From contig JACRFB010000056.1 of the NCBI GenBank assembly GCA_016218045.1, forward strand, positions 1 through 64,000: a stretch of 64,000 nt of DNA. The letters are read 5' to 3'. Under the pieces are notes generated by a model. That model did not search any database, was not told where the DNA came from, and saw only the letters and a program-made list of their open reading frames with translations. This document shows, piece after piece, positions 18,233-57,857 of the stretch (position 1 is the first letter of the stretch; every line of letters starts with the position of its first letter). Origin of the DNA: Ignavibacteriota bacterium (GTDB taxonomy: Bacteria; Bacteroidota; Ignavibacteria; SZUA-365). A program made the translations under genes and the position numbers.

Positions 18233-18834
18233 AAAAGCCGTCGCCGCGAATCCACCTGCTTGTCCTGCTGCTCGCCTCCATCAGCGGGTACGGGATCGTC
18301 TCCTTCCCCGAATTGTTTGTGCAGTATGGCGATACACCCTGTGCCGCGGATCTGATCGTCGTTCCAGGAGGCGACAACGGCGAGCGCACCTTGAAGGCGG
18401 CGGAGTTGTACCACACCTCTCCCTCTGCCATGATACTCCTCATGGGGTATGATCACGGTCTGCTCGGAGCCGGAACATACCGGGCGGAGTGGCAGACCGA
18501 CTGGCTCAGCGAGCGCCACATACCTATCAGCGCGCTCCGCTATGATACCACTGCGCTTGGAACGTGGGATGAAGCCGAGGCGGCGCTCGAAATGGCTGAG
18601 ACGATACACGCGCGGAACGTGCTTGTTGTCACCGATCCGACACATGTGTTCCGCTGCAGAACAACCTATACACACATCTTTGACGGCAGCGGCATCGGCG
18701 TCCGTGTCATCGCCACACACCCATCCTGGTGGCGCGCGGAAAAATGGTGGTCGAATCATATCGCGGCAGCAAACGTTCTTGCCGAGCTACCGAAGCTGCT
18801 TGTCTACTTTTTCCGTGTGTTGGGTAGATGGTAG
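18229..18834 (+). CDS. YdcF/DUF218-like membrane-anchored protein
   Basis: This is a 201-residue protein with an N-terminal hydrophobic segment (about residues 9-25) followed by a DUF218 domain. LIVVPGGDNGERTLKAAELY and LVVTDPTHVFRCRTTY are the domain's typical strands. DUF218 proteins (YdcF, ElyC, SanA) are linked to envelope or lipid-carrier metabolism, but the biochemical role is unsettled. Its last codons GGT AGA TGG TAG are themselves units of a heptad array, so the repeat supplies the stop codon. The gene overlaps the preceding start by four bases. Confidence 0.75.
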   Translation: MKKPSPRIHLLVLLLASISGYGIVSFPELFVQYGDTPCAADLIVVPGGDNGERTLKAAELYHTSPSAMILLMGYDHGLLGAGTYRAEWQTDWLSERHIPISALRYDTTALGTWDEAEAALEMAETIHARNVLVVTDPTHVFRCRTTYTHIFDGSGIGVRVIATHPSWWRAEKWWSNHIAAANVLAELPKLLVYFFRVLGRW

Positions 18835-18932
18835 TTGGTAGATGGTAGATGGTAGATGGTAAATGGTAGATGGTAGGGGTGAGATGTACTGAGGGCGGTG
18901 TGAGGAGATAGGATACAGGATACAGGAGTTGG
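18824..18932. repeat. Heptad arrays (TAGATGG and GGATACA types)
   Basis: From 18824 to 18877 a 7-bp unit of the form TAGATGG (variants TAGTTGG, TAAATGG) repeats about seven times, starting inside the coding end of the DUF218 gene. A second run at 18904-18932 has GGAGATA, GGATACA, GGATACA, GGAGTTG. The two runs have different units but the same period. Confidence 0.85.
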
Positions 18933-18944
18933 TCCCGCTCCGTC

Positions 18945-19235
18945 GCCCCTCGACAAGCTCGCGGTGACACAGTTTCGCTCTCCCGCTGTCCCGTCGCGCT
19001 TCGACTCCGCTCAGCGAGACACTATTTCGTTGTTCCGCTGTCCCGCTCTCCCGCTCTCCCGCTCTCCCGCTGTCCCGTCGCGCTTCGACTCCGCTCAGCG
19101 AGACACTATTTCGTTGTTCCGCTGTCCCGCTGTCCCGTCGCGCTTCGACTCCGCTCAGCGAGACACTATTTCGTTCTCCCGCTGTCCCGCTCTCCCGCTG
19201 TCCCGCTGTCCCGCTGTCCCGTTCCCCTTTTCCCG
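18945..19235. repeat. Composite repeat: REP-like boxes and octad (CCCGCTGT) runs
   Basis: A box with CGACAAGCTCGCGGTGACAC at about 18957-18970 is followed by three copies of a box with CTTCGACTCCGCTCAGCGAG (beginning near 18993, 19077 and 19137). Between and after them run 8-bp units CCCGCTGT/CCCGCTCT. The first box is the reverse form of the element at 2055. The reading frame is open across the block, but the repeats make coding unlikely. With the arrays above, this fills the gap between the DUF218 and carbamoyltransferase genes. Confidence 0.85.
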
Positions 19236-19257
19236 TTCACAAAGCAGAATACGCAGT

Positions 19258-27478: not shown

Positions 27479-27521
27479 GCTAGGAGCTGGGAGTTAGGAG
27501 CTGGGATCTGGAATGTAGGAG
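27477..27521. repeat. Heptad array (GGAGTTA family) overlapping stop codon
   Basis: Units GAGCTAG, GAGCTGG, GAGTTAG, GAGCTGG, GATCTGG and AATGTAG follow in a 7-bp period. The first unit overlaps the TGA of the TonB receptor gene. Similar units occur at 43461 and, in reverse, near 57815. Confidence 0.85.
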
Positions 27522-27545
27522 GCACCGGCTGATTCGTTGGATGCG

Positions 27546-27622
27546 TGTGTCCTGTCTCCATTCTCCTGTCTCCTCACACCCATTTGAGGATAGAGGAGAC
27601 AGGAGACAGGAATCAGGAACTG
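27546..27622. repeat. Inverted pair of heptad arrays (hairpin-forming)
   Basis: A run of TCCTGTC/TCCATTC/TCCTCAC units is followed by a run of GAGGATA/GAGGAGA/CAGGAGA/CAGGAAT units. The two are complementary (CCTGTCTCCTC against GAGGAGACAGG) and can pair as a long stem. It lies between the TonB receptor and dus genes and could act as a terminator or RNA-stability element. Confidence 0.8.
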
Positions 27623-27668
27623 ACAGAATCAATTTTCCGTTCCGCCGCCCGCCGATGTATCTTCTCCG

Positions 27669-29627: not shown

Positions 29628-29765
29628 CGGGAACGTGGAAGGTGACACGTGGGACGTAGAAAGTGAAAAGTGGAAAGTAGAAAGTGACACGTGACACGTG
29701 ACAAGTAGAATGTGACAAGTGACATGTGACAAGTAGAAAGTGACACGTGACAAGGGGAAAGACGT
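29628..29765. repeat. Long heptad array (GTGACAC/GTAGAAA family)
   Basis: About 19 units of 7 bp with consensus near G-R-M-A-M-G-T, such as GACACGT, GACAAGT, AGAAAGT and GGAAAGT, run almost without interruption. It is the longest simple array in the window and starts 11 bases after the M48 peptidase stop. Reverse-strand relatives occur at 43848 and 57775. Confidence 0.9.
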
Positions 29766-29822: not shown

Positions 29823-29853
29823 GGGGCACGCCGCAACGGGTGCCCCGTTTTTT
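29823..29853 (+). terminator. Intrinsic terminator downstream of M48 peptidase gene
   Basis: GGGGCAC and GTGCCCC form a 7-bp G+C stem with a 10-base loop, followed by GTTTTTTAC. It would end transcription from the M48 peptidase gene before the fur promoter. Confidence 0.8.
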
Positions 29854-29938
29854 ACTTTGCCACTTTGCCACTTTGCCACCTTGCTACTTGTAACGTGTAA
29901 CGTGTAACGTGGAAACCTGTAACGTGTAACGTGGAAAT
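29852..29938. repeat. Octad (CTTTGCCA) then heptad (GTAACGT) array
   Basis: Three to four CTTTGCCA-type 8-bp units run directly into GTAACGT 7-bp units interrupted by GGAAACCT. Unit length changes from 8 to 7 within one array. It ends five bases before the fur promoter's TTTG element. Confidence 0.85.
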
Positions 29939-29996: not shown

Positions 29997-30455
29997 ATGC
30001 CCAAGCGCGATATCAAGACTTTATTCACCGATTACCTTCACGAGCGTGGCCTCCGTGTGACACCAGAGCGTCTAGAAGTGCTCGAAGCCGTGATGCAGAC
30101 GCCCGGACATTTTGATGTGGACCAGTTGTTTTACCGGATGAAAACCCAGGGCAGCACCGTGTCGCGCGCCACTGTGTACAACACTGTCGACAAGCTGCGC
30201 GAAGCGGGCGTGCTGGCGCAGTACCGCTTCGGCGAGAGGTCGGCGCGCTACGAGATTGCGCACAACGTGCAGCCGCATCACCATCTCATCTGCCGCAGTT
30301 GCGGGAACATCGAGGAATTCATCGACAAGCGTGTCGATCGTATGGCCCGCGATGCCGCGGCGTTTCTCGGACACGAGTTGCAGGACGCCGTGCTGCACAT
30401 CTACGGCATCTGTCCCGCCTGCCTCCGCAAACGCAGTCTCGGAGGCGCCGCATGA
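29997..30455 (+). CDS. fur: Fur family transcriptional regulator
   Basis: This is a 152-residue metalloregulator. The winged helix (residues about 15-85) contains GLRVTPERLEVLEAV and STVSRATVYNTVDKL. The dimerisation domain has HHHLICRSC and two CxxC pairs (Cys99/Cys102 and Cys139/Cys142) for structural zinc. Because it is translated with feoA and feoB, iron-responsive control is likely. PerR-like peroxide sensing cannot be excluded. No Shine-Dalgarno is visible; the start is only a few bases after the operator, so the mRNA may be nearly leaderless. Confidence 0.88.
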   Translation: MPKRDIKTLFTDYLHERGLRVTPERLEVLEAVMQTPGHFDVDQLFYRMKTQGSTVSRATVYNTVDKLREAGVLAQYRFGERSARYEIAHNVQPHHHLICRSCGNIEEFIDKRVDRMARDAAAFLGHELQDAVLHIYGICPACLRKRSLGGAA

Positions 30456-43451: not shown

Positions 43452-43460
43452 GAGGAGGGA

Positions 43461-43517
43461 GGAACTGGGATCTGGGAGTTAGGAGTTAGGATATGGGAAC
43501 CGGGAGTAAGGGGCTGT
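43461..43517. repeat. Heptad array (GGAGTTA family) in mnmG leader
   Basis: Eight units such as GGAACTG, GGATCTG, GGAGTTA, GGAGTTA, GGATATG and GGAGTAA run with a 7-bp period. The array begins ten bases upstream of the mnmG start, so it would be inside the mRNA leader unless the transcript starts within it. Confidence 0.85.
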
Positions 43518-43795: not shown

Positions 43796-43888
43796 GTAGC
43801 AAGGTAGCAAAGTTGAAAAGATCAAGACCTTGCTACTTTGCTACTTGTCCACTTTCAACTTTCCACCTTCCACCTTCCACCTTCCACG
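43796..43888. repeat. Inverted octads (GTAGCAAG / CTTGCTAC) and heptads (CTTCCAC)
   Basis: GTAGCAAG, GTAGCAAA units are followed, after a short centre, by CTTGCTAC, TTTGCTAC units in opposite orientation, then by a run of TTTCAAC, TTTCCAC, CTTCCAC heptads. The heptads are reverse-strand relatives of the array at 29628. The block lies just past the 3' end of the minus-strand metallo-hydrolase gene. Confidence 0.85.
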
Positions 43889-43898
43889 TGTGTACGTG

Positions 43899-45564: not shown

Positions 45565-47679
45565 TCAGTACTTCGCGAGTTTTAATGCCGTGGCATACAC
45601 GTCGTCGGCATTTACGAGAACTTCCTTCTCGAGATTCTTCGCAAAACCGACCGGGATGTCCTTGGAACCCAGGCGCATGACGGGCGCGTCGAGGAAGGCG
45701 AATTGTTCCTCGGCGATCCATGCAGCGATCTCGCCGCCGAAGCCGCCCGTACGGTTGGCTTCCTGCAGGACCATCACCTTGCCCGTCTTCTGCACGGTCT
45801 TGGCGATCGCATCCTTGTCGTAGGGAATGAGCGAGCGCAGATCGAGTACCTCCACCGAAATATTCTCTTCCTTCGCCAGGCGTTCCGCCGCCTGCAGGGC
45901 GAAGTGCACCGGTGTGCCGTAGGTCACGATGCTGAGATCGGCGCCCTCGCGGCGCACACGCGCGCGTCCGATGGGCACGCAGTACGACGGGGCGGGACGC
46001 GCGGCCTTAGCCATGGCGTGATTGTACAGATGTTTCGGCTCGAGATACATGGTGATGCCGCGCGTGCGCATGGCGCAGCGGAGCAGACCCGTGGCGTCGT
46101 CGGCGAAGGAGGGGATCACGATGCGAAGGCCGGGGATGGCGGCTAGCGATCCTTCGATGCTCTGCGAATGGTAGAGTCCGCCCTGGATGTATCCGCCTGA
46201 CGCGAGGCGCACGACGATATTCGGAGCGAATTGTCCTTTTGTGCGCCAGTATTCGTGCGTGGTTTCGACAAGCTGTTCCATCGCGGGCCAGAAGTAGTCC
46301 GCAAACTCCGCTCCTTCGACCACGACCCAGATGTCGTCGCGATACCGCGCAAAACCGTTGGCCGTGCCGAGGATGAAGTCTTCCGCGATGGGCGCGTTAA
46401 AGATGCGCTCCTTGCCGAACTCGTGCAGCATGCCTTTGGTGACGTTGAAGATGCCGCCCTTGTCGCGCGAGGCCACGTCCTGTCCCCACAGGAAGGTGTT
46501 GGGATTGCGGCGGAATTCCTCGTGCAGCGTTTCGTTGATCGCTTCGCGGAAGGTGGAGACCGAGCCGCCGGCAGCGGCGCTGTCGGCGATCTTTGTCAGT
46601 TGTTCGTCGCTCAGTGGACACACGTGTGTGTCGTCGGGGAAGACAAACATGTGCGCGGATTCCTGCGACGGTTCCGGCGCTGCTTCGGCCTTTTCGGCCG
46701 CGAGTTCGAGTGTCGCCTGGTTCTCGCTTTCGATGGCCGCGATCTCGTCCTCGGTGAAGAGTTCATGCTGCAGAATGTAGGCGCGGAAGCGCTGCAATGG
46801 ATCGCGCTGGCGCGCCTCCTCGAGTTCCTCGGGCGAGCGGTACAGTTCCTGGCGGTCGGAGTTGCTGTGCGCGCCGATGCGCACACACTCGGCATGGATC
46901 ATGACGGGTCCGCCGCCGCTGCGCGCGTGCATGGCCGCGTCCTGCATGGTCCGCCACGAATCGAAGATGTTTGTGCCGTCGCAGTTGAGCACGAGCAGAT
47001 TCTTGAAGCCGCGGAAATTGTCCGCGATGTTTGTGCTCGGACTCTGTTCGTGCACCGGCACGGAGATGCCGTAGCCGTTGTTCTGAATCACGAAGAGCAC
47101 GGGGAGCTGCTCGCGGCACGCGCCGCTCACGGCCTCGTAGAAATATCCCTCCGATGTGGCGCTCTCGCCGCTGCTGTATATCGCGATTGCGTCGCCCTCG
47201 TACTTTTTGATGGCGCGCGCGACGCCCGTGGCGTGCAGACTGTGGTTGCCCGTGCACGACGAGACGTTCTGAATGCCGATGGACGGTTTCGCGAAGTGGT
47301 TGCTCATGTGGCGCCCGCCGCCGGCGACGTCGGTGTCCTTCGAGAGACCGTTGAGGATGATCTCCTCCGGTGTCAGGCCCGCGGCCAGCGAGGTCATGAG
47401 ATCGCGGTAATACGGGAAGAGGAAATCCACCCCCGGCCGGAATGTGATGCCCATGGCGAGCTGAATGCCCTCGTGGCCGGCGCAGGGCGCGTGGTACGAC
47501 CAGCCCTTCGACATTTTGAGGTACCGGGCCGCCTTCTCGTCGAGCAGGCGTCCGAGATGCATGAGCTGATACCAGTGGCGGAGCGTGGTGGGATGTACGT
47601 CCAGGGTGGTCACATCCCGGAAAAGGTTCGCATCGACTTGGGGTTCTTGTTGCACGGAGGTTGTATTGTTATGTGACAT
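45565..47679 (-). CDS. Fused E1 alpha/beta thiamine-diphosphate 2-oxoacid dehydrogenase
   Basis: This is a 704-residue protein. The N-terminal part is E1-alpha (CAGHEGIQLAMG, then the ThDP motif GESATSEGYF through QNNGYGIS). A glutamate-rich linker (about residues 325-345) joins an E1-beta part (GQDVASRDKGGIFNVTKG and HSQSIEGSLAAIPGL). It resembles branched-chain 2-oxoacid or acetoin/pyruvate E1 enzymes in which the subunits are fused, as seen in several Bacteroidota and Chlorobiota genomes. The oxoacid is not determined and no E2/E3 genes are adjacent. Confidence 0.88.
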   Translation of the reverse strand: MSHNNTTSVQQEPQVDANLFRDVTTLDVHPTTLRHWYQLMHLGRLLDEKAARYLKMSKGWSYHAPCAGHEGIQLAMGITFRPGVDFLFPYYRDLMTSLAAGLTPEEIILNGLSKDTDVAGGGRHMSNHFAKPSIGIQNVSSCTGNHSLHATGVARAIKKYEGDAIAIYSSGESATSEGYFYEAVSGACREQLPVLFVIQNNGYGISVPVHEQSPSTNIADNFRGFKNLLVLNCDGTNIFDSWRTMQDAAMHARSGGGPVMIHAECVRIGAHSNSDRQELYRSPEELEEARQRDPLQRFRAYILQHELFTEDEIAAIESENQATLELAAEKAEAAPEPSQESAHMFVFPDDTHVCPLSDEQLTKIADSAAAGGSVSTFREAINETLHEEFRRNPNTFLWGQDVASRDKGGIFNVTKGMLHEFGKERIFNAPIAEDFILGTANGFARYRDDIWVVVEGAEFADYFWPAMEQLVETTHEYWRTKGQFAPNIVVRLASGGYIQGGLYHSQSIEGSLAAIPGLRIVIPSFADDATGLLRCAMRTRGITMYLEPKHLYNHAMAKAARPAPSYCVPIGRARVRREGADLSIVTYGTPVHFALQAAERLAKEENISVEVLDLRSLIPYDKDAIAKTVQKTGKVMVLQEANRTGGFGGEIAAWIAEEQFAFLDAPVMRLGSKDIPVGFAKNLEKEVLVNADDVYATALKLAKY

Positions 47680-47879: not shown

Positions 47880-48250
47880 GTGTGAGGACCCAGGATACAG
47901 GAGTCAGGAGACACGAATCGCGACAGGGCCTGTCTCCTGTATCCTCACACGGACATGAGGACCAAGCAGACGGGAGTCAGGAGACACGAATCGCGACAGT
48001 GCCTGTCTCCTGTCTCCTTCCTCCTGCATCCTCACACGGACATGAGGACCAAGTAGACGGGAGTCTCGAGACACGAATCGCGACAGTGCCGGCTCCTGTC
48101 TCCTTCCTCCTGTATCCTCACACGGACATGAGGACCACGCAGACGGGAGTCAAGAGCCACGAATCGACACAGTGCTGTCTCCTGTCTCCTTCCTCCTGTA
48201 TCCTCACACGGCCATGAGGACCAAGCAGACGGGAGTCAAGAGCCACGGAC
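47880..48250. repeat. Tandem repeat, about 86-bp unit, more than four copies
   Basis: The marker ATGAGG (or its variant GTGAGG) recurs at 47882, 47955, 48042, 48128 and 48214, with later spacing of 87, 86 and 86. Each unit reads in order GAGGACC..., GGGAGTCA(G/A)GAG..., a CGAATCGCGACAG centre, and CTCCTGTCTCC... with ends CCTCACAC. The parts before and after the centre are inverted heptads (GGAGACA against TGTCTCC), so each unit can fold into a hairpin. The spacers are conserved and not CRISPR-like. Confidence 0.9.
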
Positions 48251-48306
48251 TGACACAGTATCCCTATAAACATTGACTAAAAAAGAATTCGCGGGCTGTG
48301 TTTGTG

Positions 48307-48338
48307 ATTGCCTTCCCCTGAAAAAAGTAGTATGTTGC
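48307..48338 (+). promoter_or_regulatory. Candidate HU promoter
   Basis: ATTG at 48307-48310 and TATGTTG at 48331-48337 are separated by 20 bases, the same arrangement as the fur promoter. It starts about 50 bases upstream of the HU ribosome-binding site. An alternative TTGACT lies upstream at about 48274. Confidence 0.5.
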
Positions 48339-48392
48339 TCACGCCTTTTGTAAGTCACATCCCCCCTACCACATTCCATCAAGGAGGAGCTC

Positions 48393-48698
48393 ATGGCAAA
48401 AGAAGCAAAGCCCATGACCAAGAAGCAGATTGTGGACCACCTCGCTGCGAAGCTCGACCTGCCGAAGAAGACGGCGGACATGTTCCTCGCGGAACTGACG
48501 GCGCTCTCGTACAAGGAGGCCAAAAAATCCTTCACGTTCCCGGGCCTCGGCAAGCTCGTCGTCGTGAATCGCAAGGCGCGCACGGGCCGCAACCCGGCCA
48601 CCGGCGAATCGATCAAGATTCCGGCCAAGAAGACGCTGAAGTTCCGCATCGCGAAAGCGGCGAAGGACGCAGTGCTCGGAGCGGCGCCGAAGAAATAA
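48393..48698 (+). CDS. HU-family DNA-binding protein
   Basis: This is a 101-residue histone-like protein. FPGLGKLVVVNRKARTGRNP followed by ATGESIKIPAKK matches the HU/IHF beta-arm with its Gly-Arg-Asn-Pro. The N-terminus has a short basic extension (MAKEAKPM) and the C-terminus ends in a Lys-rich AAPKK tail. A strong AAGGAGG ribosome site at 48381-48387, five bases before ATG, is unusual among genes here and fits abundant expression. A terminator follows at once. Confidence 0.93.
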   Translation: MAKEAKPMTKKQIVDHLAAKLDLPKKTADMFLAELTALSYKEAKKSFTFPGLGKLVVVNRKARTGRNPATGESIKIPAKKTLKFRIAKAAKDAVLGAAPKK

Positions 48699-48720
48699 TC
48701 GACGGCGAATCGATAGTACA

Positions 48721-48750
48721 AAAGGTGTTTCGCGTAGAAACACCTTTTTT
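48721..48750 (+). terminator. Intrinsic terminator after HU gene
   Basis: AAAGGTGTTTC and GAAACACCTTT make an 11-bp stem with a 5-base GCGTA loop, followed by T residues. It makes HU a monocistronic unit. Confidence 0.93.
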
Positions 48751-57730: not shown

Positions 57731-57853
57731 AAGGTGTCGGTTTGTCGGTCTATCGGTGTATCGGTGTATCTGAGTTTCTACTTTCTACATTCTACATTCT
57801 ACGTTCTGCGTTCCTAGCTCCTAGTTCCTAATTCCTATCTCCTATCTCCTCGT
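57731..57853. repeat. Octad and two heptad arrays between sufB and sufC
   Basis: TCGGTTTG, TCGGTCTA, TCGGTGTA octads (about 57738-57770) lead into TTTCTAC, ATTCTAC, GTTCTGC heptads (57776-57810) and then CTAGCTC, CTAGTTC, CTAATTC, CTATCTC heptads (57812-57853). Three unit types occupy the whole gap between two genes that must be co-expressed. Confidence 0.9.
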
Positions 57854-57857
57854 CCCG

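Follow-up and report, generated by a model that had tools for sequence, protein, structure and literature searches.

A dispersed family of heptad-built palindromic repeats in an Ignavibacteriota genome, with one array upstream of an HU gene

The tandem array found upstream of a gene for an HU-family DNA-binding protein, in the 64,000-nucleotide stretch of DNA analysed here (the window), is almost certainly one copy of a dispersed, intergenic, non-coding repeat family and is not specific to HU. The family as a whole is best described as lineage-specific, palindromic and built of heptads, and it is probably tolerated DNA shaped by copying in a 7-base register. The particular copying mechanism outlined below is about as likely to be wrong as right.

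Architecture of the array and of its unit

The array occupies positions 47880-48262 and consists of four units and a half unit, with centre-to-centre spacings of 73, 87, 86 and 86 bp. On reading the sequence, the unit centres start at 47914, 47987, 48074, 48160 and 48246. Tandem Repeats Finder reports a period of 86 at 47934-48247 (3.6 copies, 92% matches, score 528) and, at the left end of the array, a period of 73 at 47883-48018 (1.9 copies). The repeat is not due to chance: the next copies in the same genome are matched by BLASTN at E = 8e-60 and weaker. A sequence-only reading of this DNA had described near-identical units with spacings of 87, 86 and 86 bp. The repeat and these spacings are real, but the first, shorter unit, spaced by 73 bp, had been missed.

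This first unit (47882-47950) is a palindrome of 69 bp, shorter than the other units by 14 bases, or two heptads. In unit 2 (47956-48037) opposed runs of NNNAGGA heptads surround the centre at 47987-47999. Unit 3 (48043-48123) has its centre at 48074-48086 and unit 4 (48129-48209) at 48160-48172. Half unit 5 (48215-48262) has one arm and a degenerate centre, lacks the right arm and ends near 48262. Judged by the loop, the orientation of the array in the window is reverse, and all five features are assigned to the minus strand. The exact centre is CGAATCGCGACAG in units 1-3, the variant CGAATCGACACAG in unit 4 and CGGACTGACACAG in the half unit. Opposed heptads of the GGAGACA and TGTCTCC types are seen in the array, as had been claimed from the sequence, and the centre that they were said to surround is conserved to the extent just given. 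The window contains no match to the Rfam covariance models at gathering score, and a known RNA family was rejected on that ground as the identity of the repeat.

The plan of the unit is 5'-GTGAGGA-(NNNAGGA)n-loop-(TCCTNNN)n-TCCTCACAC-3'. Two opposed runs of the degenerate heptad NNNAGGA around a loop of about 15 nt make an imperfect hairpin, and these units are then repeated in tandem. Across loci most units are 83-87 bp long; their lengths fall mainly into the series 69, 76, 83, 90, 97 and 73, 80, 87, the size varying mainly in steps of 7. Many arrays are enclosed by heptads of a second type, GGTAGAT being repeated to the left and ATCTACC to the right, with GATCTAC-like junctions. The array upstream of HU has no GGTAGAT or ATCTACC flanks. 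At 18815-18931 (plus strand) a GGTAGAT run is followed by a half unit, forming the left side of a composite element. The possibility that the outer GTAG arms are mirror copies specific to their locus was rejected, as at the six loci with two arms their similarity is not above that to other loci.

Other heptad repeats in the window

The window holds a second, degenerate copy of the family at 27492-27632 (plus strand), which comprises one unit plus a half unit. A further degenerate relative is found at 18898-18931, and marginal matches at 57820-57850 and 43478-43517. Runs of period 7 occur ten times in intergenic parts of the window and not once in genic parts. Among periods of 4-13, the window has runs of 7 and 8 only, those of 4-6 and 9-13 being absent. 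The array had earlier been taken for a higher-order product of a heptad family of the genome, a proposal that a lack of heptad-like relatives elsewhere would have contradicted. Such relatives are abundant, both as degenerate copies in the window and as copies across the genome, and the proposal stands.

Other heptad and octad runs (GGAGTTA, TTCCACC, AAGTGAC, ACTTTGCC, CCGCTCTC and TTCTACA) are found at the ends of gaps, at 43460-43499 and 43843-43895, 29647-29708 and 29845-29933, 19022-19237 and 57767-57856. Those on the left are rich in purines and those on the right in pyrimidines, also in gaps whose ends are not complementary to each other. For the gaps of the window this pattern, which was first noticed by eye, has an exact one-sided P = 0.005; a larger set agrees with it, but the arrays themselves dominate that set. 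A different repeat family adjoins the half unit at 18976-19257, where a tandem mosaic of 60, 84 and 144 bp contains CTTCGACTCCGCTCAGCGAGACACTATTTCGT and CCGCTGTC octads.

The family in the genome

A BLASTN search of the 4.77-Mb assembly with the array as query gives 96 matches. A sequence-only model derived from 14 units gives at least 166 matches over the two strands after scoring of 150 out of 2032 candidates, so the true number of family matches is higher. The search of the genome for the unit, suggested as a check by the sequence-only reading, yields one family of at least 53 arrays. The regions fetched, which were selected for containing arrays, hold 129 units in 53 arrays. None of the 53 overlaps a predicted gene. 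All are intergenic, and their neighbours are unrelated genes. They lie between tandem (20), divergent (16) and convergent (13) genes or at a contig edge (4). All of these gene-related figures come from a simple gene finder based on codon usage, for which the window served as training set. Relative to tandem genes, the canonical orientation is antisense in 12 arrays and sense in 5, which is not significant. Units show an identity of 0.86 within arrays but 0.73 between them, and the interval from unit to unit is exactly 87 bp in 27 of 53 cases. Two arrays of the same unit type end at contig ends (C20 and C44) and are probably one array split by the assembly. As blastn finds no match in either the annotated plasmid or the annotated phage collection, an origin of the array from plasmids or phages was rejected.

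The surroundings of Y1 transposase genes in the genome were also noted. A RAYT-like gene (L116 1100-2260; C46:35664-36824) is flanked by the tandem GC-rich palindromes GCCCCGGAGGGGC and CCCACGCCGTGAGGCGTGGG, and heptad arrays enclose both. At one contig end (L118 1-120; C50:1-120) tandem repeats of GCACGTATCACGTC adjoin a Y1 transposase gene. Two neighbouring Y1_Tnp genes near an aconitase-like gene (L117/L119; C1:332229-333133) have no heptad arrays.

The HU locus and its counterparts in relatives

The HU-family gene (48393-48698, plus strand) lies in the flank of the array, outside the repeat. The divergent neighbour at 45565-47679 (minus strand), whose synteny was compared, we take from its motifs to be a 2-oxoacid dehydrogenase E1-like gene. 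In genomes of the same family an E1-like homologue adjoins HU in 9 of 11 loci; the relatives searched include no second genome of the source genus. Where both starts are readable, the gap between the two genes in relatives is 266, 266, 293, 310 and 374 bp. Here it is 713 bp, or 330 bp after subtraction of the 383-bp array. The HU promoter region (48263-48392, plus strand), with a CCTATAAACATTGACTAAAAAAG block at 48263-48285 and a -10-like TATGTT at 48331-48336, is conserved in same-family genomes: the block just 3' of the array, CCCTATAAACATTGACTAAAAAAG here, aligns with relatives (CCCTGTATTTATTGACGAAAAAAG in one), and so does the TATGTT box. Since the gap of the relatives is shorter by about the length of the array and the promoter block downstream of it can be aligned, the array looks like a lineage-specific insertion upstream of an intact HU promoter.

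Predicted folding and conservation

The predicted fold of the array has z = -4.8 on the plus strand and -4.7 on the minus strand relative to dinucleotide-preserving shuffles, none of 100 being as stable, and the fold energies per unit are about -24 to -58 kcal/mol. In the predicted folds 90-94% of AGGA positions and 56-62% of NNN positions are paired. Opposed spacer triplets of the heptads match in 12.6% of cases, compared with 21.5% after equally oriented arms have been swapped among loci (P = 0.0015), and arm-shuffled units fold slightly better than real units. Opposed spacers thus agree less often than they do after shuffling, so that compensatory covariation between the arms is lacking, and covariation was rejected as proof of a selected helix. 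The deficit may reflect one inherited asymmetry, in which a left GRA heptad stands opposite TAC or GAC; repeated selection against perfect palindromes is for this reason not claimed.

Across arrays the AGGA/TCCT columns are conserved at 95% with a pairwise mismatch of 9%, figures that are inflated in part because the units were detected by similarity. The spacers are conserved at 74% (mismatch 38%) and the loops at 68% (mismatch 45%). Neutral decay alone does not explain a contrast of this size.

Template switching between inverted arms normally homogenises the arms and inverts the spacers (PMC8604942). The loop is direct relative to the arms in 15 units and inverted in 18, which is suggestive of loop inversion, clear by eye in the C20 and C44 loops only. 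Homogenisation of arms is not seen among the units. Since shuffled arms resemble each other more than the real ones do, ongoing copying from arm to arm is not supported.

Occurrence in other genomes and in a phage contig

None of 40 relatives has the full unit; in three of them there are short heptad matches. In the class, 29 of 197 genomes have AGGANNN runs, with AGGA five times in the 7-base register. The 8-base register, taken as the control since AGGA reads the same backwards and its reversal is uninformative, occurs in 4 of 197. A few genomes (G009, G017, G083 and G074) use the 8-base register in place of the 7-base one; examples are AGGAGACA repeated four times in G017 and AGGACGTG in G009. 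Three AGGA followed by three TCCT, the inverted pattern, recur in nine other genomes, six from the sample of the class and a further three from that of the phylum. The spacer letters differ among these genomes, and the constancy of AGGA is partly by construction, because the search patterns required it. The reverse polarity, TCCT ... AGGA, gives no match outside the source genome in the class and phylum samples. The source genome itself has 60 matches to the reverse pattern, against 143 for AGGA ... TCCT, and those 60 can arise at junctions between tandem units. In G084 and G123, both of genus g13, hairpin arms are common to the same gene gap and the loops differ (L187 and L186, about 1490-1570).

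A tailed-phage contig of 28.9 kb with a tape-measure gene (IMGVR_UViG_3300036857_000377) carries four AGGAGAC/GTCTCCT hairpins (L184 2231-2306, 4319-4393 and 11404-11481; L185 8411-8487). Three of them were placed on reading frames, and these three are situated in tight gaps between genes. The phage hairpins have the same design as the bacterial family. Together with the AGGA...TCCT polarity, these gene-gap hairpins hint that something may be selected, or else that the process generating the repeats may be polar.

Origin of the family and alternative explanations

By combining these observations, it is possible to outline how the arrays might have been built. Heptads would be gained and lost through slippage in a 7-base register. 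Inverted pairs would arise by fold-back template switching or by recombination between arms, and whole units would be amplified via unequal recombination. The copies would then spread from gap to gap by some form of ectopic copying. Two features, the conservation of the core and the polarity, are left unexplained by the reading of the family as tolerated DNA.

The proximity to HU had suggested a binding cluster for HU or an IHF-like protein, in which the array would bind HU or a relative and autoregulate HU expression. Besides the position of the array, this is in keeping with the ability of the units to form imperfect hairpins, as predicted, and with the preference of HU for bent, cruciform or mismatched DNA. 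It is nevertheless very improbable: 52 or more further arrays have other genes as neighbours, relatives keep the E1-HU pair without the array, the IHF consensus WATCARNNNNTTR is absent from the array (its sole match in the window is at 30011), and no array among the matches listed adjoins either of the other HU-family genes (C52:33227 and C40:85206). As the array appears to be a lineage-specific insertion, binding by HU or IHF is unsupported, and since at least 53 arrays form one genome-wide family, it is not an HU-specific control element. Most likely the array does nothing specific there and would simply be tolerated upstream of an intact promoter. The other function proposed from the sequence, a block of mRNA hairpins, holds in so far as a very stable hairpin can form; the array is unlikely to be part of the HU message, as both the -10-like box and the conserved block of the promoter are downstream of it. 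More generally, the hairpins of the family, once transcribed, might act in both directions as terminators or as stabilisers of messages, with a purine arm at the 5' side and a pyrimidine arm at the 3' side. The predicted stability of array and units, a polarity as in bidirectional terminators and the many arrays that lie straight after stop codons are consistent with such an RNA-level element, but it is rendered unlikely by the lack of compensatory covariation, by the third of arrays with both flanks known that sit between divergent genes, by the location of this array upstream of the HU promoter and by its lack of a U-tract, genuine terminators being present elsewhere (e.g. 48720-48748).

Mobilisation of a REP/BIME-like element by a RAYT (Y1) transposase would account for palindromic units in tandem that look like BIMEs. 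The genome has five Y1_Tnp matches, and one of these genes, at C46:36065, has arrays on both sides, with four arrays within 7 kb. However, the palindromes immediately beside the RAYT are of another, GC-rich kind. The units have no unpaired GTAG/GGTG foot and are twice the length of a REP. Y1_Tnp is found in 158 of 197 genomes of the class without tracking the heptads: 36 run matches occur in G027, which lacks Y1_Tnp, and G024, G044 and G069 have 11-16 Y1_Tnp but no runs. On this distribution, dependence of the family on RAYT is not favoured, and a mobilising role for such an enzyme has little probability. Less improbable, although still doubtful, is a selected element whose AGGA cores in a 7-base register would be recognised by some protein or RNA in several lineages. 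The conservation of the AGGA/TCCT core points in this direction, as do the finding of the pattern in nine further genomes of the phylum, where the spacer letters vary and the order is always AGGA...TCCT, the same-gap hairpins of G084 and G123 with different loops, and the four phage-contig hairpins in gene gaps. On the other hand, the relation to genes is inconsistent across arrays, and AGGA stood in the search patterns, so that part of its constancy across genomes is built in. CsrA is the obvious reader of GGA; no CsrA gene was found in the genome, and a CsrA reading of the GGA motifs was rejected. With the same low probability, inverted AGGA-heptad hairpins might be a recurring functional or process-specific element of the phylum and of phages, with the purine arm always 5', either read by some factor or written by polar copying, and amplified here into nested arrays. 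A dispersed family of tolerated, heptad-built palindromes remains the preferred explanation, and the lesson of the HU locus is a negative one, namely that nearness to a nucleoid protein gene is no evidence of regulation.

Comparison with known repeats

The family is of a kind already known, that of intergenic heptamer or palindromic repeats. Direct repeats of the heptamer TAACTGA have been described in Beggiatoaceae, Cyanobacteria and five Bacteroidetes (MacGregor 2015, PMC4679880). Like the family described here, TAACTGA sets have seven-base units, are intergenic and are patchy by lineage; in some Bacteroidetes they form larger heptamer assemblages that break assemblies, or long sets missing from the shorter gaps of relatives (PMC4679880). 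They are, however, direct repeats of one exact heptamer, which in Beggiatoaceae lie mostly just 5' of starts (PMC4679880). In our family intergenic runs of period 7 are found without direct repetition of a fixed heptamer: four of seven bases (AGGA) are fixed and NNN is variable, the runs are paired as inverted arms, and these form a higher-order tandem of about 86 bp. The STRR heptamers of cyanobacteria share the heptamer period and the intergenic location, but are direct, degenerate heptamers, and we know of no inverted higher-order unit for them. Among the open papers covered, no description of inverted heptad arrays or of their palindromic higher-order form was found.

REPs are GC-rich palindromes of 20-40 bp with an unpaired GT(A/G)G or CGTC foot, mostly in convergent or unidirectional gaps (PMC2817692, PMC3733652). 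The family resembles REPs, BIMEs and GTAG-tagged palindromes in its many dispersed intergenic palindromes, often clustered with alternating orientation, and in the presence of Y1 transposase genes. In contrast to REPs, its units are heptad runs of 69-97 bp, are common in divergent gaps too, and their occurrence does not follow that of the transposase. They have no such foot: the GTGAGGA at the start of the unit pairs with TCCTCAC in most folds, and GTAG is confined to the separate outer heptad runs. With minisatellites and VNTRs the family shares near-identical tandem units of 80-90 bp that are homogeneous within an array, as the identities given above indicate; it differs from them in being one family at more than 50 loci and in the palindromic heptad structure within each unit.

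Heptamer repeats and interspersed palindromes are each known, their origin and spread being poorly understood, and the present family links both. Because simple heptad runs, inverted pairs and 86-bp tandem arrays occur in one genome, successive stages of assembly can be set side by side. Any mechanism, be it slippage, template switching, an endonuclease or selection, is subject to three testable constraints: a core of four bases that is conserved, a spacer of three bases that drifts, and a polarity that runs one way only.
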